A stretch of DNA of 11,196 nt, from contig JAFEEK010000495.1 of assembly GCA_018241165.1 (NCBI GenBank), positions 1-11,196 of the forward strand, written 5' to 3'. Below the pieces are notes generated by a model. That model saw only the letters and a program-made list of their open reading frames with translations. It ran no database searches and had not been told where the DNA came from. A program made the position numbers and the translations under genes. Source of the stretch: Pseudomonadota bacterium. Its GTDB lineage: Bacteria; Pseudomonadota; Gammaproteobacteria; Xanthomonadales; Rhodanobacteraceae. Below are positions 1 through 11,196 of the stretch, in pieces; the stretch's first letter is position 1, and each line of letters begins with the position of its first letter.

Positions 1-759
1 ACTGCATTCAAGGCCGGCCCGCTTGGCGCGCGCAAGCGCTGCGCCTGGGCCGAGCCCCTGCCGCTGGCGGAAGTGCGCGCGCTCGGCAAAGTCCTGCGCT
101 GCACGGTCAACGACATCCTGCTCGCGTGTGCGGCAGGCGCGCTGCGCGGCTATCTGCGCGATCTGGGCGAAGCGGTCGATGGCGTCACCATCCGCGCCAC
201 CGTGCCGGTGAATCTGCGTCCGCTGGAACATGCCAGGCAGCTTGGCAATCATTTCGGGCTGGTATTTCTGGATCTGCCGGTGGGTGAAGCGAACCCGCTG
301 CGGCGGCTGGAACTCATCGCTGCCTCGATGCGCGAACTCAAGCGCAGCAAGCAGGCTGCGCTCACGTTCGGCCTGCTCGCCGCGGTCGGCATGGCGCCGG
401 CCGGCCTGCAACGCATGGCGCTGGATCTGTTCAGCCGCAAGGCGACTACGGTTGCCACCAATGTTCCCGGCCCGAAAAAACCGCTGTATCTTGCCGGTGT
501 TGAAGTGAAGGAGCTGATGTTCTGGGTGCCGCAGAATGGCACCGTCGGCATGGGCGTGTCGATCCTGTCCTACAACGGCCGCGTGCATTTCGGCCTGATC
601 GCCGACCAAGGCCGCGTCGCCGATCCCGACGCGATCGCGCAGCGTTTCGCGTGCGAAGTGGAAAAACTGACCTTGCTGACGCTGATGGAAGACTGGGATG
701 GCGGAATCGGATCCGGCGACGCGGCGGCGACGCTGGATCGATTCGTGCGCGAGACATGA
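1..759 (+). CDS. Wax ester synthase/diacylglycerol acyltransferase (WS/DGAT), C-terminal part
   Basis: The frame is open from the first base of the window, so the gene begins upstream and only about 252 C-terminal residues are visible. WS/DGAT enzymes esterify fatty acyl-CoA to long-chain alcohols or diacylglycerol and make neutral-lipid storage droplets. The visible part matches the WS/DGAT C-terminal domain: a segment around TVNDILLA, then VPVNLRP followed by LGNHFG, then TNVPGP, and near the end a GVSILSYNG segment. The catalytic HHxxxDG motif lies in the N-terminal half, outside the window, so activity cannot be judged here. It ends at TGA 757-759. No clear neighbour on the lipid pathway is present. 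The family call is confident; the preferred substrate cannot be told. Confidence 0.9.
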   Translation, partial: TAFKAGPLGARKRCAWAEPLPLAEVRALGKVLRCTVNDILLACAAGALRGYLRDLGEAVDGVTIRATVPVNLRPLEHARQLGNHFGLVFLDLPVGEANPLRRLELIAASMRELKRSKQAALTFGLLAAVGMAPAGLQRMALDLFSRKATTVATNVPGPKKPLYLAGVEVKELMFWVPQNGTVGMGVSILSYNGRVHFGLIADQGRVADPDAIAQRFACEVEKLTLLTLMEDWDGGIGSGDAAATLDRFVRET

Positions 760-786
760 TTCCTCCGGTAACGCCGGCCGATCTTT

Positions 787-829
787 TTGTATGTACAATT
801 TCTTGACACGTACTGGATCGTGCATACAA
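787..829. promoter_or_regulatory. Candidate BrnA operator pair around the brnTA promoter
   Basis: TTGTATGTAC (787-796) recurs in inverted orientation as GTGCATACAA (820-829) with one mismatch. The centres are 33 bases apart, about three helical turns, so both would face the same side. The left copy also forms a local palindrome, TTGTA-TG-TACAA (787-798). The left copy lies upstream of the -35 box and the right copy covers the -10 box, as expected of an autorepressor. BrnA of Brucella is known to bind and repress its own promoter; its binding these sites is inference. Confidence 0.5.
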
Positions 830-830
830 T
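803..830 (+). promoter_or_regulatory. Sigma-70-type promoter of brnTA
   Basis: TTGACA (803-808, consensus -35) and TACAAT (825-830, one mismatch to the -10 consensus) are separated by 16 bases. The -10 box ends directly before the ATG at 831, so transcription should start near 837. That places the ATG upstream of the mRNA start. Confidence 0.75.
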
Positions 831-1115
831 ATGGCCGTGAACGTCGAGTTCGATCCCGTGAAGAACGAGCGCAACATTCGCGAACGCGGTCTTTCGTTCG
901 AGCGCGTTGTCGACTTCGATTTCGTGACAGCGGCGTTCGCAATGGATTCGCGCCGGGATTACGGCGAGGTACGCCACATCGCCGCCGGTTATCTGGACGG
1001 CCGGCTGCATGTCTTGTGCTTCGCGTTGAAACACGACGCGCTGCGCGTAATCAGTTTTCGCAAAGCCAATAAACGCGAGGCTAACCGCTATGGCAAACCG
1101 CAAACCCTTGATTGA
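831..1115 (+). CDS. brnT: BrnT family toxin
   Basis: A 94-codon DUF497/BrnT protein. BrnT is a RelE-like ribonuclease toxin that stops translation and is neutralised by BrnA. Family features seen: an N-terminal VEFDP followed by a KN..N..ERGLSFE segment, a central strand with a GEVRH..AGYLDGR pattern, and the C-terminal SFRKANKREANRYG motif. Length is normal. The ATG at 831 abuts the -10 box and has no Shine-Dalgarno sequence. The in-frame GTG at 837 falls at the predicted transcription start and gives the usual short N-terminus before EFDP, so translation is probably leaderless from 837. The gene overlaps brnA by 26 bases, the common toxin-first order for this family, and the pair should be co-transcribed and autoregulated. 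Confidence 0.92.
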   Translation: MAVNVEFDPVKNERNIRERGLSFERVVDFDFVTAAFAMDSRRDYGEVRHIAAGYLDGRLHVLCFALKHDALRVISFRKANKREANRYGKPQTLD

Positions 1116-1407
1116 CGACGACGGGGAAGTCCGCGAACTGGCGCGTGCGGATTTCCGCCGCTTCAAGCCTTTTTCCTCGTTGTCGAAGGATGTTCGGGAA
1201 AAGCTCTTGAGCGTACGTCGGCGGGGCCCGCAAAAAATGCCGACGAAAGAGCGAATCACCATCCGCCTGTCGGAGGAAGTACTTGTGCCGTTCCGCGACA
1301 GCGGCGATGGCTGGCAAACCCGCATGGATGCCGCGCTCGCCGACTGGTTGAAAACCCACTCGCCCAAAACCGGCAAGCGCCGCCCACGGCGCCTGGCTGG
1401 TGTTTGA
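1090..1407 (+). CDS. brnA: BrnA family antitoxin
   Basis: A 105-codon protein matching the BrnA antitoxin family: a basic, poorly structured N-terminal half, then a ribbon-helix-helix-like segment starting near residue 54 (RITIRLSEEVL), and the typical GDGWQTRMDAAL helix and short tail. BrnA binds and blocks BrnT, and the dimer binds DNA to repress the operon. The ATG lies inside brnT, 26 bases before the toxin stop, with GAGG (1076-1079) upstream as a weak ribosome site, so translation is probably coupled. The tail is rich in Arg/Lys. It converges on hicB with 34 bases between the two stop codons and no evident hairpin terminator. Confidence 0.9.
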   Translation: MANRKPLIDDDGEVRELARADFRRFKPFSSLSKDVREKLLSVRRRGPQKMPTKERITIRLSEEVLVPFRDSGDGWQTRMDAALADWLKTHSPKTGKRRPRRLAGV

Positions 1408-1441
1408 TCGCCATGGCCGAGAAGGGCTGACCCCGTTTCAT

Positions 1442-1867
1442 TTACCTGGCCGAGGTAACCCCGAGCGTCAATTTTCGTCCCATCGACTGCAACGCATCGG
1501 CGATTGCGTCGATCTTGCTCGCATGACCGAGATCGACGAGCCGAGTCACGGACTGTGGACTGGTGTGCAGCTTGCGAGCCAATTCCGCCGCGGTGATGTG
1601 CTGGTCGAGCATGGCATTCAACAAAAAAACCTTGGCTGCTGCGCTTGCCGGCAAGTCGATGCCGACCTGGCCGCGCTTTACGGGCGACGGCATGGGCACC
1701 GGGCGCTTGTCGCTGACGTAGAAATCCATCGCGGTCAGCAAGGCGTCCGCCGCCATTTCGACCGCTTCCTCGCGGGTTTCACCCTGCGTTAGCGCTTCCG
1801 GGATATCCGGGAATTTTACGAAAAAACCGTCGCCGTCGGATGCGATGATTGCGGGATACGTCAACAT
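1442..1867 (-). CDS. hicB: HicB family antitoxin
   Basis: A 141-codon protein close in layout to Escherichia coli HicB (138 residues). The N-terminal half is the partly degraded RNase H-like HicB fold, with the family signature FPDIPEALTQGETREEA near residues 19-35. The C-terminal half is a Xre-type helix-turn-helix around residues 90-120 (ITAAELARKL...VTRLVDLGH) used to bind its own promoter. It neutralises HicA. It is the second gene of hicA-hicB, starting 12 bases after the hicA stop with GAGG six bases before the ATG. The HTH type, rather than the ribbon-helix-helix type of HicB, is the one expected with the palindrome upstream of hicA. No damage is seen. Confidence 0.94.
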   Translation of the reverse strand: MLTYPAIIASDGDGFFVKFPDIPEALTQGETREEAVEMAADALLTAMDFYVSDKRPVPMPSPVKRGQVGIDLPASAAAKVFLLNAMLDQHITAAELARKLHTSPQSVTRLVDLGHASKIDAIADALQSMGRKLTLGVTSAR

Positions 1868-1879
1868 GATCTGCCTCGC

Positions 1880-2056
1880 TTATTGAATGCCTAGCTGCTT
1901 GATGATCGCCTTGCGCAGTCCCTCACCAAGCTGCTGACTCTGATGACGCGGCAGGGTCGTCTGTTTGCCCTTGTAATAGACCTTTGTGTGCTTCGCGCCT
2001 TCCTCGAAAGTTGCACCTTTCTGTGCAAGCCACTTGCGGAATTCGCTGATCTTCAC
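1880..2056 (-). CDS. hicA: HicA family mRNA interferase toxin
   Basis: A 58-codon protein with a GTG start at 2056; HicA toxins have a double-stranded-RNA-binding-like fold and cleave mRNA. The E. coli protein has the same length, and many positions look shared: the KISEFRKWL N-terminus, the predicted catalytic His23 in GAKHTK, TTLPRH in the middle, and a GLRKAIIKQLGI C-terminal helix. The start is supported by AGGGGA (2069-2064) seven bases upstream and by the promoter at 2111-2083. The open frame extends much further upstream, but there it only mirrors the flavoprotein gene. It is followed by hicB in the usual order, and both residues and length suggest an intact toxin. Confidence 0.93.
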   Translation of the reverse strand: MKISEFRKWLAQKGATFEEGAKHTKVYYKGKQTTLPRHQSQQLGEGLRKAIIKQLGIQ

Positions 2057-2082
2057 CGTCGCGTCCCCTGCACGATTGTGGA

Positions 2083-2111
2083 AACATAAACACTTTTGTT
2101 TATACGTGCAA
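2083..2111 (-). promoter_or_regulatory. hicAB promoter with palindromic operator
   Basis: A perfect inverted repeat, ATAAACA-CTTT-TGTTTAT (2086-2103), sits between a candidate -35 (TTGCAC, 2111-2106) and -10 (TATGTT, 2088-2083) spaced by 17 bases on the minus strand. Both boxes are only moderate matches. Transcription would start near 2076, about 20 bases before the hicA GTG. The HTH-type HicB is the likely binder of the palindrome. The palindrome is seen; its role is inferred. Confidence 0.6.
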
Positions 2112-2151
2112 CCCTCTGCAGGTTGCTTGTCTTCGGATTCCTGCGTTCGGA

Positions 2152-3342
2152 TCAAACCGCGCAACCCGCCGCGTGCCCCGACGCCCACGCCCACTGGAAG
2201 TTGTAGCCGCCCAGATGCCCCGTGACATCGACGACTTCGCCGACGAAATACAGGCCGGGGACGCGACGCGATTGCATTGTTGCGGATGAAAGCTCGTCGG
2301 TGTCGACGCCGCCGAGCGTCACTTCGGCGGTGCGATAGCCTTCGGTACCGCTGGCGACGATGGGCCAGTTTTTCAGGTCGACCGCTATCTGGATCAACTC
2401 CGCGTCTCGATACTGTTTCATCGGACGATTCGTGATCGTGGTTTCGCACAGGCGTTGCGCGAATCGCTTTGGCAGCCATTCGGCGAGTATCGTCTTCAAC
2501 TCGGACGCCGGTCGCTGCGCCTGCTGATCGCGTAACAGCGTCAGCGCATCGAGTTCCGGCAGCAGATCGATCGTCAACGCGTCGCGCGGCTGCCAGTACG
2601 ACGATATCTGCAGGATCGCCGGGCCGCTGATGCCGCGGTGCGTGATGAGCATCGCGCCGCGAAAACTCTGCGTGCCGCAGCGCGCTTCGACGGGCAGGGC
2701 GACACCGCTCAGATCCTGCCAGCGTTCAAGATGCGTGCCGCTCAAGGTCAGCGGCACCAGCGCGGCGCGTGTCGGCAGAACATCGTGGCCGAACTGACGC
2801 GCGATTGCGTAGCCGAATCCGCTGGCGCCCATGCTCGGAATCGACAGGCCGCCGCTGGCGACGACCAGCGCAGGCGCGGTGAATAAGCCCGAGTCCGTGC
2901 CGACGACAAAACCATCCGCGGTCTTGCGCACCGAGTCGATGGTGCAGCCGACGCGGATATCCACGCCCGCCGCCGCGCATTCGGCCAACAGCATTGCAAC
3001 GATCTGTTTCGAGGATTCATCGCAGAACAGTTGTCCCAACTCTTTCTCGTGCCAGGCGATGCGATGACGCTCGACCAGATCGATGAAATGCGCCGGCGTG
3101 TAGCGGGCGAGCGCCGATTTGCAGAAGTGCGGGTTGGCCGAGAGGAAATTGTCCGGCGTGGTGCCGGTGTTGGTGAAGTTGCAACGGCCGCCGCCGGACA
3201 TCAGGATTTTCTTGCCAACGCGATTGGCGCCTTCGAGCACGATCGCGCGCCGGCCGCGCTGGCCTGCTGTCAGCGCGCACATGAGACCGGCGGCGCCGCC
3301 GCCGGCAACCAATACGTCACAGGATCCGGGAATTAAATTCAC
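2152..3342 (-). CDS. BaiN/HI0933-family FAD-dependent oxidoreductase
   Basis: A 396-codon flavoprotein of the HI0933/YhiN family, near the usual length of about 400. Seen: the N-terminal dinucleotide-binding motif GGGAAG (residues 14-19), the family hallmark KKILMSGGGRCNFTN (about 44-58), and the C-terminal FVGEVVDVTGHLGGYNFQWAW segment that closes the FAD site. The physiological substrate of most members is unknown; one relative, BaiN, was linked to bile acid reduction, which should not be carried over here. The start is a GTG at 3342 that overlaps the stop of the upstream transporter gene (GTGA), which suggests translational coupling. The stop is 40 bases before the hicAB -35 box. Confidence 0.9.
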   Translation of the reverse strand: MNLIPGSCDVLVAGGGAAGLMCALTAGQRGRRAIVLEGANRVGKKILMSGGGRCNFTNTGTTPDNFLSANPHFCKSALARYTPAHFIDLVERHRIAWHEKELGQLFCDESSKQIVAMLLAECAAAGVDIRVGCTIDSVRKTADGFVVGTDSGLFTAPALVVASGGLSIPSMGASGFGYAIARQFGHDVLPTRAALVPLTLSGTHLERWQDLSGVALPVEARCGTQSFRGAMLITHRGISGPAILQISSYWQPRDALTIDLLPELDALTLLRDQQAQRPASELKTILAEWLPKRFAQRLCETTITNRPMKQYRDAELIQIAVDLKNWPIVASGTEGYRTAEVTLGGVDTDELSSATMQSRRVPGLYFVGEVVDVTGHLGGYNFQWAWASGHAAGCAV

Positions 3343-4754
3343 GCCCCCGCCCGCCGCGGCAGGCCGGCAAACATCAGCGAAGACAAGGTTGTCACGCCGC
3401 CGAGGATCAGCATGGTGGCGCGGAACGCGGCGATGTAGTGCTCGCCGCCGTGGGATCCGTGCAGGAATACCGCCATCAACAGCGACGCGAAGGCAATGCC
3501 GAAACTGATCGACAGGTTCTGGATCGTGCTCGTCATGCTCGATCCCATGCTTGCCTGCGTCGGCGACAAATCCACGAAACCGAGCGTGTTCATCGCCGTG
3601 TATTGCAGCGACATGACGAAGCCGTAGACGAACACCTGCACGCAGATCAGCCAGACCGGCGTTGCGTCGTGCAGGGTCGCGAACAGCATGATCAGGATGC
3701 CGGACAGCGCGGTGTTGTAGAGCAGCACGCGGCGGTAGCCCTGGTACTTGATGATCGTGCCGGCGAAAAAGCGCATCAGCAGCATCGCCACGGCCTGCGG
3801 CACCTGCAGCGCGCCGGCGACCAGCGCCGAGTAGCCGAATCCGACCTGGAACAGCAAGGTCAGCAGGAAGTAGATGCCGCCGACCCCCAGGCGCGTGGCG
3901 AATGCGCCGTTGAAGGCGATGCGAAAGCTGCGGATGCGCAACAGTTTCAGGTCCACGATCGGCGCGTGTGCGCGGCGGGCATGGCGCAGGTACAGCGCGA
4001 GCGCGGCGAAGGCGGCGATGCCGGCGAGAATGCCTTGCGCGTAACGGTTGTCCGATACCTGTTCCAGCGCCCAGGACAAGCCCCCCGCGCCGAGCGCGAA
4101 CAGCGCAAACCCCGGCATGTCCAGCCGTGAGCGCGGATCACCACGATAGTCGGGCATGAAGCGCCGCGCCATGAACAAGCCGATCAATCCGAACGGCAGG
4201 TTGACGAAAAAGATCATCCGCCACGACAGGTATTCGGAGAAGAATCCGCCCAGCAGCGGGCCGATGGCCGGGCCGATCAGTCCGGGAATCGTGGCGAATG
4301 CCATTGCATCGACGAATTCGGATTTGTCGAACGCGCGCACCAGCGCCAGGCGCCCGACCGGAATCATCATCGCGCCGCCGAAGCCTTGCACGATGCGCGC
4401 GGCGACCAGCATCCACAGGTTTTGCGCAAGTCCGCAGGCCAGCGAACCGAGGGTGAAAATCAGGATCGCCCACCAGAACACCGCGCGCGTGCCGTAGCGG
4501 TCGGACAGCCACGAACTCAAGGGGATGAACACCGCCAGCGCGAGCGTGTAGCTGGTCAGGGCAGTGCGCAAGTCCAGCGGCGCAATGCCCATGCCTGCCG
4601 CGATCGTCGGCGTCGCCGTGTTGACGATCGTCGAGTCGAGCATCTGCATGAAGAACGAAAACGCGATCAGCCACAGCAGCACGCGCTTGGCGCGGGCGTC
4701 GAGCACCGGGTCGGTGGCGAGGTTCGGGCTGGCTGCGGCGTCCATCGGCCGCAC
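3339..4754 (-). CDS. DHA2-family MFS drug efflux transporter, MdtD-like
   Basis: A 471-codon integral inner-membrane protein made of regularly spaced hydrophobic helices. DHA2-family signatures are visible: MLDSTIVNTATPTI in the first helix (about residues 38-51), the motif A loop LSDRYGTR (83-90), VQGFGGAMMIPVGRL (about 122-136), motif C GPAIGPLLGG (161-170) and SWRMIFFVNLPFG (177-189). These enzymes export drugs or metabolites by proton antiport. Overall it most resembles E. coli MdtD/YegB, which has the same length, but the substrate cannot be told. The start may be GTG 4754 or ATG 4745; neither has a good Shine-Dalgarno sequence. It begins 18 bases after the TPR-like gene and overlaps the flavoprotein gene by 4 bases. 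No periplasmic adaptor gene is next to it. Confidence 0.9.
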   Translation of the reverse strand: MRPMDAAASPNLATDPVLDARAKRVLLWLIAFSFFMQMLDSTIVNTATPTIAAGMGIAPLDLRTALTSYTLALAVFIPLSSWLSDRYGTRAVFWWAILIFTLGSLACGLAQNLWMLVAARIVQGFGGAMMIPVGRLALVRAFDKSEFVDAMAFATIPGLIGPAIGPLLGGFFSEYLSWRMIFFVNLPFGLIGLFMARRFMPDYRGDPRSRLDMPGFALFALGAGGLSWALEQVSDNRYAQGILAGIAAFAALALYLRHARRAHAPIVDLKLLRIRSFRIAFNGAFATRLGVGGIYFLLTLLFQVGFGYSALVAGALQVPQAVAMLLMRFFAGTIIKYQGYRRVLLYNTALSGILIMLFATLHDATPVWLICVQVFVYGFVMSLQYTAMNTLGFVDLSPTQASMGSSMTSTIQNLSISFGIAFASLLMAVFLHGSHGGEHYIAAFRATMLILGGVTTLSSLMFAGLPRRAGA

Positions 4755-4772
4755 ACTATACCCGGGGAATGT

Positions 4773-5615
4773 TTATGCGAGCTGAGCCTTCGCCCACTCC
4801 GAATCCAATCGTTCCATCGCATCGCGCGGTTTGAGTCTGGCCGCCTTGTCGAAGGCTGCGGCGGCATCGTCTTCGCCCTTGTCGCCGCGCAGGAGCATCT
4901 GCGCGTTGCCGTATTCGATCCAGGCGATGGGCGAATCCGGCGTCAGTTTGAGCGCTTCCTTGAGCTGTTTTTCGGCTTCAGCCGCGCTGGCGCCGTAGGT
5001 CAGCTTCGCCAGCATGCCGCCGACCTTGCCGACGATTTCGGCGTTGTACAAACCGAGCGCGGTGCGCGCCTCGGCGTGCTTTGGCGCGAGCTTGAGCGCG
5101 GCATCGAGCGACGACTTCACTTTGCCCGCGATGCCTTGCGCCAGCGCCTGCGCGACCGACAGGCACTGGCTGTAGCGGCCCAGCGCAAACGCGCGGCGAT
5201 AGTGGCTGTTGGCCTCGCCGGGCAGGGCTGCGATGGCGTCATCGGCAAGTTCAGCCAATGCCGCATAACGCGCGAGCTTGTCCTTGTCGGATTTGAGCAA
5301 ATACGTCGCGTGGATTCCTCCGGCCTTGATCGCGACCGATGCGCCGAGCGCGCCGAGCGCGACGCCGGCATCGTGCGCCTGCTGGAAATCCCCGCGATGA
5401 AACGCGCGCCAGGCGTCCTGCAACTTCTCCGCTGTTTTGTCGGCGTCCTTGCCGAGCCTGGGGTTGGCCTTGAGCAGTTTCGCGAGGTGTTTCTCGTCCG
5501 GATAGGGTTCCAGGTCCCCTGCGTGAAGTTGCTTCCAAGACTTGGCGAGCTTGTCGCCGGCGTAGTCGAATGCCTTGTCCGGATGCGGGAACGGCGCCCA
5601 GTTCGATTTGGCCAT
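4773..5615 (-). CDS. TPR-like repeat protein of unknown function
   Basis: A 280-residue, Ala-rich, probably all-helical cytoplasmic protein with no signal peptide or membrane segment. The ATG at 5615 is chosen over a farther in-frame start because GAGGAA lies five bases before it and the protein then starts MAKSNWAPFPHP. Helical pairs with TPR spacing are visible near residues 155-180 (AALKLAPKHAEARTALGLY) and 215-260 (LKEALKLTPDSPIAWIEYG, then AAAAFDKAARLKPRD). TPR repeats usually bind other proteins. I recognise no specific family member. It is the first gene of the minus-strand run with the transporter and flavoprotein and is divergent from ligA across 55 bases, where TATGCT (5645-5640) is a possible -10 box. 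Confidence 0.72.
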   Translation of the reverse strand: MAKSNWAPFPHPDKAFDYAGDKLAKSWKQLHAGDLEPYPDEKHLAKLLKANPRLGKDADKTAEKLQDAWRAFHRGDFQQAHDAGVALGALGASVAIKAGGIHATYLLKSDKDKLARYAALAELADDAIAALPGEANSHYRRAFALGRYSQCLSVAQALAQGIAGKVKSSLDAALKLAPKHAEARTALGLYNAEIVGKVGGMLAKLTYGASAAEAEKQLKEALKLTPDSPIAWIEYGNAQMLLRGDKGEDDAAAAFDKAARLKPRDAMERLDSEWAKAQLA

Positions 5616-5658
5616 GGGAATTCCTCGTTGCGATGCGCAAGCATAGCGTGGCTGCGGG

Positions 5659-7752
<2,094 letters not shown>

Positions 7753-7754
7753 CG

Positions 7755-7784
7755 CCTTCTCCCCCAATCTCGATTGAGTTGGAG
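7755..7784. repeat. Eroded copy of the hairpin repeat next to the ligA stop
   Basis: Three bases after the ligA stop, a pyrimidine run (CTTCTCCCCC) is followed by CAATC-TC-GATTG (7765-7776) and then a purine run ending GGAG. The layout, pyrimidine arm, small loop, purine arm, matches the clear repeats at 7822 and 8200, but the outer arms no longer pair well. It could also act as a weak terminator for ligA. Confidence 0.35.
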
Positions 7785-7821
7785 TTGGCTCACGCGGCGC
7801 GACGCGACTCGGCGCTCTTTT

Positions 7822-7869
7822 CTCCCTCTCCCCCAAGCAAGCTTGGGGGAGAGGGGTGGGGTGAGGGGG
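7822..7869 (-). repeat. Hairpin repeat, left copy (inverted relative to right copy)
   Basis: A perfect 14-base stem (arms 7824-7837 and 7842-7855) closes a CAAG loop, followed by the flank GTGGGGTGAGGGGG. Read on the minus strand, the flank becomes CCCCCTCACCCCA and the whole unit aligns with 8200-8246 except for the loop, the loop-proximal stem pairs and one flank base. Similarity also extends outward to a CGCTCT/AGAGCG hexamer (7813-7818). The purine flank lies just before the TTG start at 7876. Confidence 0.88.
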
Positions 7870-7875
7870 TGATGT

Positions 7876-9312
7876 TTGGAGCCTGAAAAGCGGTTACGCA
7901 AGAACTCGACCGATGCGGAAGCGAGACTTTGGTCGCTTCTGCGCAGTGCGCAACTAGGCGTGAAATTTCGGCGCCAACATGAGCTTGCTGGCTACATCGT
8001 CGATTTCGTCAGCGTCGAGCGGCGACTGATTGTCGAACTCGACGGTAGTCAGCATTTGGATGCGCATGTCTACGACGTAAAGCGCACACAAACACTTGAA
8101 CAGCTTGGATTCCGCGTACTTCGTTTCTGGAACGATGAAGTATTGTTGAAAACTGATGATGTGTTGTCTGCCATTGCGCACGTACTGGCCGAAGTGTCGC
8201 CCCCTCACCCCAACCCTCTCCCCCGACAGCGTCGGGGGAGAGGGAGTAGAGCGATGCTGCAAAGCACTCAACCTGGACAGAGTCGGGGAAGCGGGAGTAG
8301 GGAGGGACTGCAAAGCCCTCTCCTCCAGGCAAGGCTTGGGGGAAAGGGAGGGCAGCCTTCGCTGTTGCAAACACGACTCGTATTGCGTGCGCGCCTGTAC
8401 GCCCTGATCCGCGAGTTCTTCGCCACGCGCGGTGTGCTCGAAGTCGAAACGCCGATTCTGTCCGCGAGCGCGAACACCGAGCCGAATATCGCCAGTTTCG
8501 TCACGCGGTTTTCCGGACACGTCGATTCCGGTGCGCGCGAACGCTGGCTGCGCACCTCGTCCGAATTCGCGCAGAAGCGTCTGCTTGCTGCCGGCATTGG
8601 CGACAACTACGAACTCGGGCGTGTGTTTCGCGATGGCGAAGCGGGGCAGAGGCACAATCCCGAGTTCAGCATGCTGGAGTGGTATCGCGTGGGCTGGGAT
8701 CACCTGCGTCTGATCGACGAAACCGTCGAACTCGTGCACGCCGCACTCGCGCTGGTCGGAAAATCCACGACGGTTCGCAAATCAACGTATCGCGATTTGT
8801 TTCGTGATGAGATCGGGCTCGATCCGTTCGTCGTGAGCGAGGCGGAACTGCGATCTGCACTCGGTGAAATTCGTGTCGATCCAGTCGGGCTATCGCGTGA
8901 CGACTGGCTGGACCTGTTGCTCACGCACTGGATTCAGCCGAAGTTTCCGCACGATCGCATCACTGTCATCTACGACTATCCGGCCACGCAATGCGCGTTG
9001 GCGAAGCTCCGCGCAGGGAATCCGCCGGTCGCGGAGCGTTTCGAGTTATATGTTGGCCAGCATGAATTGGCGAACGGCTATCACGAACTGACGGATGCGG
9101 TGGAGCAGCGCGCGCGCTTTGTGCGCGACAACGCGCGCCGGCGCGAGCGTGGCTTGCCGGAGTTGCCGCTGGATGAGAATTTCCTTGCTGCGCTGGAACG
9201 CGGCATGCCCGATTGCGCCGGCGTCGCGCTCGGCATAGAGCGCCTGCTGATGGCGATGACGGGCAGCGACGATATCCGCGATGTGCTGGCATTTGGCTTC
9301 GCGAATGCGTGA
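7876..9312 (+). CDS. epmA: DUF559 nuclease-like domain fused in frame to EF-P lysyltransferase EpmA
   Basis: One 478-codon frame with three parts. Residues 1-107 form a complete-looking DUF559 domain, a Vsr/restriction-like fold: KFRRQH, YIVDF (Asp43), LIVELDG (Glu54, Asp56), GSQH and VLRFWNDEV. Residues 108-163 are low-complexity residues translated from hairpin repeats (HPNPLPRQRRGRG). Residues from about 164 are EpmA, a class II lysyl-tRNA-synthetase-like enzyme that adds beta-lysine to elongation factor P. Its motif 1 is GVLEVETP, motif 2 FRDGEAGQRHNPEF and motif 3 GVALGIERLLM; HELTDA is also kept. E. coli EpmA is 325 residues, so this frame is about 150 too long. The start is TTG 7876 after GAGGGGG (7863-7869). 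ATG 8254 may instead start EpmA alone (352 residues). No epmB or efp is nearby. It ends 3 bases from the convergent DUF2461 gene. Confidence 0.82.
   Translation: MEPEKRLRKNSTDAEARLWSLLRSAQLGVKFRRQHELAGYIVDFVSVERRLIVELDGSQHLDAHVYDVKRTQTLEQLGFRVLRFWNDEVLLKTDDVLSAIAHVLAEVSPPHPNPLPRQRRGRGSRAMLQSTQPGQSRGSGSREGLQSPLLQARLGGKGGQPSLLQTRLVLRARLYALIREFFATRGVLEVETPILSASANTEPNIASFVTRFSGHVDSGARERWLRTSSEFAQKRLLAAGIGDNYELGRVFRDGEAGQRHNPEFSMLEWYRVGWDHLRLIDETVELVHAALALVGKSTTVRKSTYRDLFRDEIGLDPFVVSEAELRSALGEIRVDPVGLSRDDWLDLLLTHWIQPKFPHDRITVIYDYPATQCALAKLRAGNPPVAERFELYVGQHELANGYHELTDAVEQRARFVRDNARRRERGLPELPLDENFLAALERGMPDCAGVALGIERLLMAMTGSDDIRDVLAFGFANA
8200..8246 (+). repeat. Hairpin repeat, right copy, inside the epmA frame
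   Basis: The flank CCCCCTCACCCCA is followed by a perfect 14-base stem (8214-8227 and 8231-8244) with an AGC loop and a trailing AG. It is in inverted orientation to 7822-7869. The three loop-proximal pairs differ as whole pairs (GAC/GTC here, AAG/CTT in the left copy), so pairing is kept. It is translated in frame as PPHPNPLP and onward. Confidence 0.9.
8241..8256 (+). promoter_or_regulatory. Candidate internal ribosome site and ATG for a stand-alone EpmA
   Basis: AGGGAG (8241-8246), the purine arm end of the hairpin repeat, lies seven bases before an in-frame ATG (8254-8256). Starting here would yield EpmA with about 37 extra N-terminal residues and without DUF559. The stable hairpin would hide this site when folded, but translating ribosomes would open it. 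Confidence 0.4.
8257..8372 (+). repeat. Degenerate tandem repeat units between the hairpin repeat and the EpmA domain
   Basis: CTGCAAAGC at 8257-8265 recurs at 8308-8316, and TGCAAA again at 8366-8371, giving periods of 51 and 57 bases, both multiples of three. Between them lie an eroded unit (about 8266-8307) and a better kept one (about 8316-8351) whose CAAGG loop region resembles the left hairpin copy. In the protein this appears as repeated LQS/LQT. Confidence 0.65.
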
Positions 9313-9315
9313 GGT

Positions 9316-10002
9316 TCAGAACTCCAGTTCCAGCGCCGCACACAGGTAATCGATCATCGGCGCGAGGCGCTTGAAAGTCGCCATTGCAAATGCCGGAAGC
9401 TCGGACGAACACGCCAGAGCTTCGGAAAATTCCGCGCCGGCCGCGTAGCTTTTGCGCTTGAGGTCTTCGATCAATTCGTGATCGGCGGGGTAGCCGCGCG
9501 GCGGACGCGAGAGGCTTTCGCCCCAGAACGCGAAGTGTTCGCGAAAGACCTTGCCCTGCGTGGCGCGCTTCCACGCGGCCGGATTGTCGGCAAGAAAATC
9601 GCGGATGCGCTTGAGCGTCGGCGCTTCCGGATGCCAGATGCCGCCGCCGGCGAAACAGTCGCGCGGTGCGATATGCAAGTAGAACGACGGCGCCGCGACT
9701 TCGCGGCGGCGCTCGTGGAACAGGCGCGCGCCGGCCCAGGGCTTGTACGGCGTCTTGTCGTTGGCGAAACGCGTGTCGCGATGAATGCGGAACAGCGAGC
9801 CGCCAACCTTGCGCGGATCGGCGCGCATGTGCGTGCTGATCTTCGCCAATGGCGATTGGAGGTCGGCGATCAGTTGCAGGAACGGCTCGCGCACGTGGCG
9901 TTCGTACTCGGCCTTGTGCGCGTGGAACCACGGTCGGTTGTTGTTGCGATCCAGCGCGCGCAGGAAGGCGAAGGTGCTTTTCGTGAAGTAGGGTTTGCTC
10001 AT
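9316..10002 (-). CDS. DUF2461 (TIGR02453) family protein of unknown function
   Basis: A 228-codon soluble protein matching the DUF2461 family, of normal length. Family hallmarks seen: an N-terminal FLRALDRNNNRPWFHAHK segment with the Asn-Arg-Pro-Trp-Phe core, then FRIHRDTRFANDKTPYKPW in the middle (about residues 68-90), then FYLHIAP and a GGGIWHPEA loop. The biochemical function is not known to me. The conserved Arg, His, Asp and Lys residues in the middle motif suggest a binding or active site, which is inference. The ATG at 10002 overlaps the sbcB stop (ATGA), so it is probably translated together with exonuclease I, hinting at a DNA-related role. Its stop is 3 bases from the epmA stop on the other strand. 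Confidence 0.92.
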   Translation of the reverse strand: MSKPYFTKSTFAFLRALDRNNNRPWFHAHKAEYERHVREPFLQLIADLQSPLAKISTHMRADPRKVGGSLFRIHRDTRFANDKTPYKPWAGARLFHERRREVAAPSFYLHIAPRDCFAGGGIWHPEAPTLKRIRDFLADNPAAWKRATQGKVFREHFAFWGESLSRPPRGYPADHELIEDLKRKSYAAGAEFSEALACSSELPAFAMATFKRLAPMIDYLCAALELEF

Positions 10003-11196
10003 GGCAGGGTTAACGTATGGCCGATGTCGGCGGCGATGTCGCGCCCCCAGCTGTCGAGGCTATCGAGCAGGGTTTGCTGTCCACCCGTCGTCGCCGGGGC
10101 GGCGCGCAGCGCGGCGATTTGCGCGAAGTAGTCGTCCAGCGTCAGCGAAGTGATCGACGTCGCCTGGGTGAGTCGCTGGCGGCGGAACGATTGCCAGCGC
10201 CGATGTTCGTCGGCGTTGAGCGTTTGCGGAAAATTGCGTGCGCGAAAACGGAGCAGCAGCGGCGCATAGCGCGCGTCAGCGAAGGCGTTTTCGTATTCGC
10301 GCAAGGATGCCGGCGGTGTGCCGCGAACCTTTCCGAACAGGCGTTTGTCGGCGTCGGACGGGAATCCGGCGTAGATCGCCAGTTCCGGGTCGATGGTTTG
10401 CTTCTCGTCGCGCTCGAGCGCGAACACACGGCGGACTTTTTCCCCGACATCGGCTGCATGGCGCAGCGCGTCGAGATGTTTTTCGCATTGCGCGACATCC
10501 ATGCCGATGCGCTTCGTGTCCACATCTTTCAGCACGGACAATGGCGCCAATGCGGGCGATTTGTTGACGTGCACGGTCTTGAGCGGAATGCGCGCGAACT
10601 CTTCGGGCAAGTCCGCTTTCGGCGTGAACACGAGGTCGCGGATTTCATCCGCGTCCAGGCTGATCAACGGCGCCGGATCGACGGACAGGTCGTAGACAAT
10701 CACGCCATTGGGTTGGCTGGGATGTGCGGCCAGCGGCACAACGACCGCCGCACAGCCGCGCTCGACCGGATACCGCGATGAGACATGCAGCACCGGCGTG
10801 CGATGCGCGTAATCCAGGTACTTGAACGCCTCGGACTTGCGCCGCAACGCGAAATAGAAATCCCACAGGCGCGGCTGTGCACGCTTGAGCAGGCGCGCGA
10901 GGTCGATCGTGGTGGCGACATCCGATGCGGCGTCGTGCGCGTGCGCGCTGGACAGGTTGTTCGCGGCGGCCAGGTCCTGCAGCTTGAAACTGGGTTTGCC
11001 CTCGCGCGAAGGCCATTGGATGCCGTGCGGGCGCAGTGCGTAACACATGCGCGCCAGGTCGATGATGTCCCAGCGCGAATTGCCGTTCTTCCATTCGCGT
11101 TCGTAAGGGTCGTAAAAATTGCGGTACAGCAGGTTGCGCGTGAACTCGTCGTCGAAGCGGATCGAGTTGAAGCCGGCGCCGCAGGTTCCGGGCGCG
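9999..11196 (-). CDS. sbcB: Exodeoxyribonuclease I, N-terminus outside window
   Basis: Exonuclease I degrades single-stranded DNA 3' to 5' and acts in recombination and mismatch repair. About 398 C-terminal residues are visible and the gene runs off the right edge; E. coli SbcB is about 475, so roughly 75-80 residues are missing, including the first catalytic DEDD motif. Seen near the edge: GFNSIRFDDEFTRNLLYRNF with the motif II Asp, then SRWDIIDLARMCYALRP, and motif III in AHDAASDVATTI with the His and Asp catalytic residues. Further on are the SH3-like and C-terminal regions, with LVHVS-like and RARNFPQTL segments. It is the first visible gene of a pair with DUF2461, which it overlaps by 4 bases. 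No defect is seen. Confidence 0.95.
   Translation of the reverse strand, partial: APGTCGAGFNSIRFDDEFTRNLLYRNFYDPYEREWKNGNSRWDIIDLARMCYALRPHGIQWPSREGKPSFKLQDLAAANNLSSAHAHDAASDVATTIDLARLLKRAQPRLWDFYFALRRKSEAFKYLDYAHRTPVLHVSSRYPVERGCAAVVVPLAAHPSQPNGVIVYDLSVDPAPLISLDADEIRDLVFTPKADLPEEFARIPLKTVHVNKSPALAPLSVLKDVDTKRIGMDVAQCEKHLDALRHAADVGEKVRRVFALERDEKQTIDPELAIYAGFPSDADKRLFGKVRGTPPASLREYENAFADARYAPLLLRFRARNFPQTLNADEHRRWQSFRRQRLTQATSITSLTLDDYFAQIAALRAAPATTGGQQTLLDSLDSWGRDIAADIGHTLTLP

Follow-up and report, generated by a model that had tools for sequence, protein, structure and literature searches.

A DUF559 nuclease gene between inverted BoxC/PIT-type hairpins as a candidate REP/RAYT-like mobile element

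Why should a small nuclease gene lie between two facing copies of a hairpin? The question is raised by an 11,196-nucleotide stretch of DNA from a gammaproteobacterium of the Rhodanobacteraceae (assembly GCA_018241165.1, contig JAFEEK010000495.1, positions 1 to 11,196; hereafter the window), in which a gene of the DUF559 family stands between ligA and epmA and is bracketed by two facing 47-48-bp repeats, each a hairpin followed by a tail. An initial annotation, made from the letters alone, had described two opposing 47-48-base repeats, each a 14-base stem plus a flank, around a small gene, and had likened them to repetitive extragenic palindromic (REP) elements with their REP-associated tyrosine transposases (RAYT). 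Folding and a repeat search of the window bear out that layout: both repeats have a perfect 14-bp stem and a G-rich tail directed at the gene (DNA folding z -4.62 each), and their arms were recovered as an inverted pair (I2). The loop-proximal bases that it had reported (left AAG/CTT, right GAC/GTC) do differ between the copies and do pair within each. Its comparison with REP/RAYT is likewise supported, since the repeat is not scattered without a tie to DUF559 genes and relatives do not all carry the same insertion.

Inverted repeats around DUF559 genes

In the window, the repeats have a pyrimidine-purine-purine (Y-R-R) layout with a third strand that mirrors the purine arm, and judged by this layout they are the known BoxC/PIT (potential intrastrand triplex) motifs. 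These have been described as a pyrimidine arm, a purine arm and a purine third strand, occurring in over 260 bacteria and with 23 copies in Escherichia coli MG1655 (PMC4666352; here and below, statements drawn from cited papers refer to the parts of them available to us). The same source reports the triplex in vitro for the isolated strand, and its available part does not support formation in vivo. In 98 of 148 parsed repeats the third strand is a perfect mirror of the purine arm, with either A or T accepted opposite A, against 14.9% for shuffled tails, a control that swaps tails among repeats with different stems and ignores relatedness. The third strand changes along with the stem, for example GGGGAGAGGG with GGGTGAGGGG, GGGAGAGGGG with GGGGTGAGGG and GGGAGAAGG with GGATGAGGG. 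A second class of repeat has a further hairpin interposed after the stem and before the third strand, with paired changes of its own when read by eye. The second DUF559 gene of the window genome (L002) has on its flanks an inverted pair of a different hairpin, in which CCCTTCCCCCGC...GCGGGGGAAGG is followed by a second, small hairpin and finally by a third strand rich in G. An Rfam scan of the window returned zero families at gathering scores.

The initial annotation had proposed counting the repeat genome-wide, and CCCTCACCCCNNCCCTCTCCC has 34 exact sites (class 1a) in the 2.45-Mb window genome, the left repeat of the cassette being one of them, while the same pattern read backwards has 0. 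Among the 27 copies read out of these 34 sites, 15 have a long stem, and loop-proximal pairing of at least 3 bp is kept in 14 of the 15 under eight spellings, in agreement with the annotation's impression that the hairpin is maintained.

It had also proposed asking whether DUF559 genes are flanked by inverted pairs more often than expected by chance, and they are. Counting a pair when the copies are inverted, lie within 250 bp and reach a local score of at least 14, we find one at 54 of the 73 usable DUF559 genes of relatives versus 38 of 1986 control spans of the same shape, placed wholly outside the gene in neighbouring DNA that is probably mostly coding. This set comprises the long DUF559 matches with flanks in 99 genomes, window genome included and short fragments found by hidden Markov model (HMM) omitted, and three tandem copies in genome G043 count as three. 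A broader set, 80 named loci plus 29 from 398 genomes of the phylum (145 of which have a match; only 29 new loci were taken), gives a pair at 70 of the 103 genes usable after filtering versus 44 of 6891 controls, and 61 versus 10 at a score of at least 18; the named loci were picked by likeness to alignment A1, which consists mostly of repeat-flanked genes, and also contain some relatives of the window, so that this rate may be high. Three loci with a flank shorter than 100 bases (L037, L075, L148) and four duplicates were dropped before counting. For the window pair itself, a chance inverted repeat was rejected on several control-span and control-window comparisons.

Pair-bearing loci span the alpha-, beta- and gammaproteobacteria, Desulfobacterales, Syntrophales, Nitrospirota, Chloroflexi, Omnitrophota and Gastranaerophilales, and the left and right copies are alike within a locus and unlike between loci. 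Outside the main sets, two Deinococcus plasmid loci have inverted pairs (scores 47 and 20), and a gonococcal locus and a Picosynechococcus plasmid locus have hairpin repeats nearby with weak pair scores (11 and 13). Tails mostly face the gene: among the 248 repeats of 124 pairs, 157 point toward it, 25 away and 27 are undecided, with no hairpin parsed in 39, and 65 of the 96 pairs in which both copies could be parsed have both tails inward. Of 176 DUF559 genes, 154 have a pyrimidine/purine hairpin with 8-bp arms on one or both sides (101 on both), versus 27 of 1864 control windows. In locus L053 (G043:C3:274314-278618) the DUF559 cassette itself stands in three tandem copies at 501-bp spacing.

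Copy number, repeat type and insertion sites

Dispersal of the repeats is tied to DUF559. When both repeat classes are counted in the 99 genomes, copies beside genes included, at least 10 repeats are present in 28 of the 46 genomes with DUF559 versus 2 of the 53 others (Fisher p 2e-10). The 46 have a full-length or long match, G029 with its split matches among them, and another 6, whose matches are weak and fall mostly within long open frames, were scored negative. By genus the figures are 17 of 28 versus 0 of 23 DUF559-free genera (p 2e-6), and in the nine genera that hold both states carriers are higher in seven, lower in none and tied in two. Three reversed patterns have counts of 0 across the 99 relatives; the class-1d pattern is present in 9 of the 99, too few to test. 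Y1 transposases have no association with at least 10 repeats in these genomes (19 of 64 with versus 11 of 35 without, p 1.0), and a search for Y1_Tnp found zero in the window genome (34 repeats), in G035 (222) and in G022 (86). Copy number tracks DUF559 and not Y1/RAYT-type transposases.

The type of repeat also goes with the resident gene. In the window genus, five genomes have a class-2 repeat beside a DUF559 gene (in three of them it was seen in one flank alone); these five contain 4, 10, 20, 65 and 49 class-2 repeats, and the remaining 11 genomes contain 0-3. Protein and repeat similarity are correlated over 122 loci, L053b and L053c omitted (Mantel r 0.32, 0 of 2000 permutations), with a signal that comes mainly from close relatives. 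At G072:C12:41860-42595 and 57111-57494, class-2 repeats form tandem arrays at 88-bp spacing.

Occupied and empty sites, a comparison also proposed at the outset, both occur between ligA and epmA. In the best 30 of 60 genomes searched, window genome included, 24 loci are bare (19-59 bp gap), 4 hold a DUF559 cassette (the window genome, G012, G017 and G035), 1 holds a solo repeat (G003) and 1 another gene (G001); no doublet was seen between the two genes in these 30 loci. The four cassette proteins need 3 changes on the protein tree, which fits one or several arrivals alike. In locus L217 (G012) a long run of a roughly 6-base tandem repeat (AAGCCA/AAGCCC) lies between the DUF559 cassette and epmA.

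Repeats also occur in frame within protein genes. Of 16 congeners, 4 have such a repeat in a monooxygenase gene, 1 has a different repeat-derived insert there and 10 have none; the remaining one is not covered. Two such repeats lie in the coding genes of L237 (window genome, C110), where the repeat is missing in 10 of 16 congeners, and of L238 (C31); we take the host genes to be kynurenine-monooxygenase-like and nucleotidyltransferase-like, respectively. Among the matches listed, nine genomes hold 16 tail-inward pairs no more than 1.5 kb apart, ten at 69-106 bp, one at 170 and five at 355-404; all five of the last group contain DUF559, and the tail-inward doublets are spaced at 69-83 and 104-106 bp, plus the one at 170.

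Table 1. Features of the cassette and its surroundings, in window coordinates
Feature	Position	Strand	Details	Basis
Left terminal repeat	7822..7869	+	arms 7824-7837 and 7842-7855; tail GGGGTGAGGGGG 7858-7869, toward gene	sequence, inverted pair I2, fold
DUF559 (PF04480) PD-(D/E)XK nuclease gene	7876..8199	+	TTG start; without own stop	HMM match 7888-8187
Right terminal repeat, opposing the left one	8200..8246	-	tail 8200-8211; arms 8214-8227 and 8231-8244	sequence, pair I2, fold
Degenerate hairpin-like sequence, outside left repeat	7755..7790			repeat pair I22
Degenerate hairpin-like sequence, outside right repeat	8316..8352			read by eye
ligA, left neighbour ending beside insertion	5671..7752	+	product presumably NAD-dependent DNA ligase	open reading frame (ORF); tblastn synteny in 30 loci
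epmA, right neighbour	8377..9312	+	product taken to be EpmA/GenX-like lysyl-tRNA-synthetase paralogue; in frame with DUF559	ORF; tblastn synteny

The nuclease gene of about 320 bases seen in the initial annotation stands as a DUF559 gene on the forward strand, but it does not end by itself: its frame crosses the right repeat and ends in epmA at 9312, a single open frame for both. The epmA matches of G012 and G017 are likewise part of long open frames, of 519 and 482 aa. Positions 8267-8317 are 75% identical to 8216-8266 (repeat D2 of the window).

The nuclease, its proposed role and the alternatives

The window protein has a DUF559 domain (7888-8187, profile E 6.9e-38; Pfam PF04480 E 3.4e-38), and the Pfam scan that gave this match found no Y1_Tnp in it. 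T12, E15, D43, D56 and Q59 are invariant in a 52-row DUF559 alignment, and the window protein keeps the conserved columns E15, D43, D56 and Q59. Its AlphaFold model (mean predicted local distance difference test, pLDDT, 83.9) is matched best in Foldseek by 3hrl, a DUF559-like protein of Neisseria (E 9.7e-9), then by the homing endonuclease I-Bth0305I (3r3p_B, E 9.3e-6), with Vsr (1cw0) weaker at E 5e-3 and ranked below two mitoribosomal proteins; a sequence match to 3r3p in the PDB has E 8e-4. The model gives the nuclease a fold of homing-endonuclease/Vsr type, and we take the I-Bth0305I family to be the EDxHD homing endonucleases. Vsr profiles stay below their cut-offs for the window protein (PF03852 13.7 bits against 27, TIGR00632 23.2 against 97.85), and PADLOC gave only weak partial matches on the window (Hhe 16.1 bits, DpdF 16.6, Vsr 13.6). 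By tblastn at E 1e-5 the protein matches 3 of 50,697 phage records and 41 of 72,556 plasmid records, some of these chromosome-sized, and it looks mainly chromosomal at this sensitivity. Some DUF559 copies have an internal stop, like decaying mobile elements (L187/L040 in G027, L008 in G045, L055 in G031). Another group of DUF559 proteins, about 123 aa long, occurs in genomes that have no repeats of the type tested (G506, G582 and G596, for example) and is perhaps domesticated.

The family has a member in E. coli, where ycjD of MG1655 is a DUF559 gene (PF04480 E 1.4e-49) whose product was placed earlier within the PD-(D/E)XK superfamily (PMC1189080). A BoxC copy lies about 170 bp past the 3' end of ycjD in MG1655 and a decayed copy right at that end; in strain SCU-482 an intact BoxC stands there, tail toward the gene. 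For the E. coli sites in general, the available part of PMC4666352 reports that no mobility-providing activities were found around them. The ycjD region (at least 80% of the query) is present in 3362 of the 5375 genomes with a match. Strains without ycjD were rejected as clean empty sites, the three examined holding an efflux operon there; PMC12817139 describes this replacement at the locus.

We regard it as fairly probable that the cassette is a minimal mobile element, REP/RAYT-like with an unrelated PD-(D/E)XK nuclease, and that the scattered repeats are its non-autonomous derivatives. The unit would be one small DUF559 gene between inverted hairpin repeats whose G-rich tail may fold back on the stem as an intrastrand triplex; solo repeats and doublets, BoxC/PIT of E. 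coli among them, would be the non-autonomous derivatives of that unit. DUF559 would recognise its own repeat type, probably in a folded single strand such as may arise on the lagging strand or during repair, and would cut at the repeat border, after which host repair could copy repeats, doublets or the whole cassette to new places. What has been observed is the pairing around the genes, the dispersal across genomes that goes with DUF559, the matching of repeat types, the covariation of stem and third strand, and insertion at sites that are empty in relatives. We advance more tentatively, as a possibility rather than an expectation, that a PD-(D/E)XK nuclease of homing/Vsr type drives mobile repeats with each DUF559 recognising its own folded triplex type, and that the BoxC/PIT repeats of E. 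coli are relics associated with ycjD.

Several observations weigh against the mobile-element interpretation. Binding and cutting of the repeat by DUF559, recognition of triplex over duplex and the transfer step are what we infer by analogy. On the protein tree, repeats of one class group together only loosely, with 14 changes for 19 class-2 rows of 128 (the tree contains one faulty row, L053b, which is placed one base off and whose flanks are unaffected). The link is weaker in Pseudomonas, in which genus we place G284 by assumption: at least 10 repeats of the tested type occur in 5 of 22 carriers versus 4 of 97 others (p 0.011), 15 of the 22 carriers have fewer than 4 copies, and the reversed-pattern control is unusable because the pattern is nearly its own mirror. 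Four genomes of the window genus without a DUF559 match, incomplete metagenome-assembled genomes, hold 6-19 class-1a repeats. The flanks are not uniform either: both tails point outward in 8 of the 96 parsed pairs, directions are mixed in 4 and undecided on one or both sides in 19, and the tail of the Deinococcus locus L274 points outward; 53 of the 176 genes have the hairpin in one flank only and 22 in neither, 12 of these still being paired by alignment and 10 having neither hairpin nor pair. In E. coli, ycjD is without a 5' repeat partner, and a Caulobacter DUF559 protein has been proposed as a Vsr-like repair enzyme (PMC12907096).

DUF559 might instead be a homing-type gene that invades pre-existing repeats, cutting a repeat or doublet and being copied in by inter-repeat recombination, with the repeats spreading otherwise. 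The closest fold outside DUF559 is indeed that of the homing endonuclease I-Bth0305I, tail-inward doublets 69-106 bp apart resemble a cassette without its gene, and five DUF559-free genomes carry at least 5 repeats. However, none of the 23 DUF559-free genera reaches 10 copies, the abundance of a repeat type tracks the resident DUF559 type, and the ligA-epmA site is bare or holds the cassette, with a solo repeat in G003 and no doublet in the loci examined; we consider this account unlikely. That an unrelated mover, a RAYT/Y1 transposase or an insertion sequence, spreads the repeats and DUF559 is a passenger or preferred neighbour would follow an established precedent, that of REP elements with Y1 transposases (PMC2817692), but Y1_Tnp is unrelated to repeat number in a count that covered Y1 only among transposases, it is absent from the window genome, G035 and G022 despite their many repeats, and the 27 copies read in the window genome lack a constant GTAG head. 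Y1/RAYT as the mover was rejected on its absence from the window genome and the missing copy-number link in 99 genomes, and a mover unrelated to DUF559 seems very unlikely overall.

Distinctly unlikely, in our estimation, is a Vsr-like repair or defence nuclease near which terminators, insulators or RNA-stability elements have gathered by chance. Caulobacter VsrA, a DUF559 protein, is functionally linked to a cytosine methyltransferase and is required for the DNA-damage response that arises when a methyltransferase is absent (PMC12907096), and the 100 hairpins of this kind in Enterobacter sp. 638 were read by their authors as terminators (PMC2869309); yet terminators need no same-type inverted pair flanking a gene, repeats also lie in frame within coding sequence, and an earlier PIT study found neither promoter nor terminator activity, as PMC4666352 relates it in the part available. 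As for an artefact of composition or phylogeny, in which C-rich hairpins are common in GC-rich genomes and DUF559 sits in intergenic-rich spots, our controls are drawn from neighbouring DNA and intergenic DNA would be stricter; but the two copies resemble each other at a given locus and not those of other loci, the reversed patterns count 0, and the within-genus contrasts all run in one direction, which makes this explanation scarcely credible.

Proposed ownership of BoxC/PIT and comparison with known systems

BoxC/PIT repeats were already known from E. coli in the 1990s, and since 2015 from over 260 genomes, with their owner and spread unexplained in the available part of PMC4666352. DUF559 is likely their owner, as part of an unrecognised mobile-repeat system. 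A literature search (CCCTCTCCC included) found no report joining DUF559 to these repeats, within partial coverage that leaves an earlier report possible. If the repeats belong with a single small family of nucleases whose function is unknown, repeats and family would be explained together, and the origin of BoxC/PIT would become directly testable in laboratory E. coli. One source of the genome instability ascribed to triplex DNA in PMC4666352 may be accounted for in this way as well. If true, the system would be a second, independent invention of the REP/RAYT strategy, suggesting that the partnership between a dedicated nuclease and small foldable DNA originated on at least two occasions. If so, we know of no earlier nuclease tied to triplex-forming ends.

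Palindromic repeats also lie in frame inside protein genes in the Rickettsia palindromic elements, for which we know of no owner nuclease, and the in-frame insertions found here are likened to these by description, not by sequence. The DUF559 unit resembles I-Bth0305I and Vsr in fold (Foldseek), but it is without intron or intein, its Vsr profile scores are below cut-off, and it has inverted repeats at its ends. With the BoxC/PIT motifs it shares the repeat layout, including the inverted pairs known in E. coli; whereas the available part of the account in PMC4666352 ties no gene class to them, the repeats here bound a DUF559 cassette, and we describe a further class in which another hairpin precedes the third strand.

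The closest parallel is REP/REPIN with RAYT (TnpA-REP). RAYT genes are said to be always flanked by two inverted palindromic repeats, and RAYTs are Y1 (IS200/IS605-type) enzymes acting on hairpins headed by GT(A/G)G (PMC2817692). In both systems a small nuclease gene lies between inverted hairpin copies, the repeats are dispersed as singlets and as inverted doublets of set spacing, and there appears to be some matching of enzyme type to repeat type. Unlike REP/RAYT, the DUF559 system has a PD-(D/E)XK nuclease and not a Y1/HUH transposase, its 27 copies read in the window genome have no constant GT(A/G)G head, and its repeats have a G-rich third strand that mirrors the stem. Because enzyme class and head motif differ, it is not a member of REP/RAYT; it is organised as REP/RAYT is, and built from different parts.

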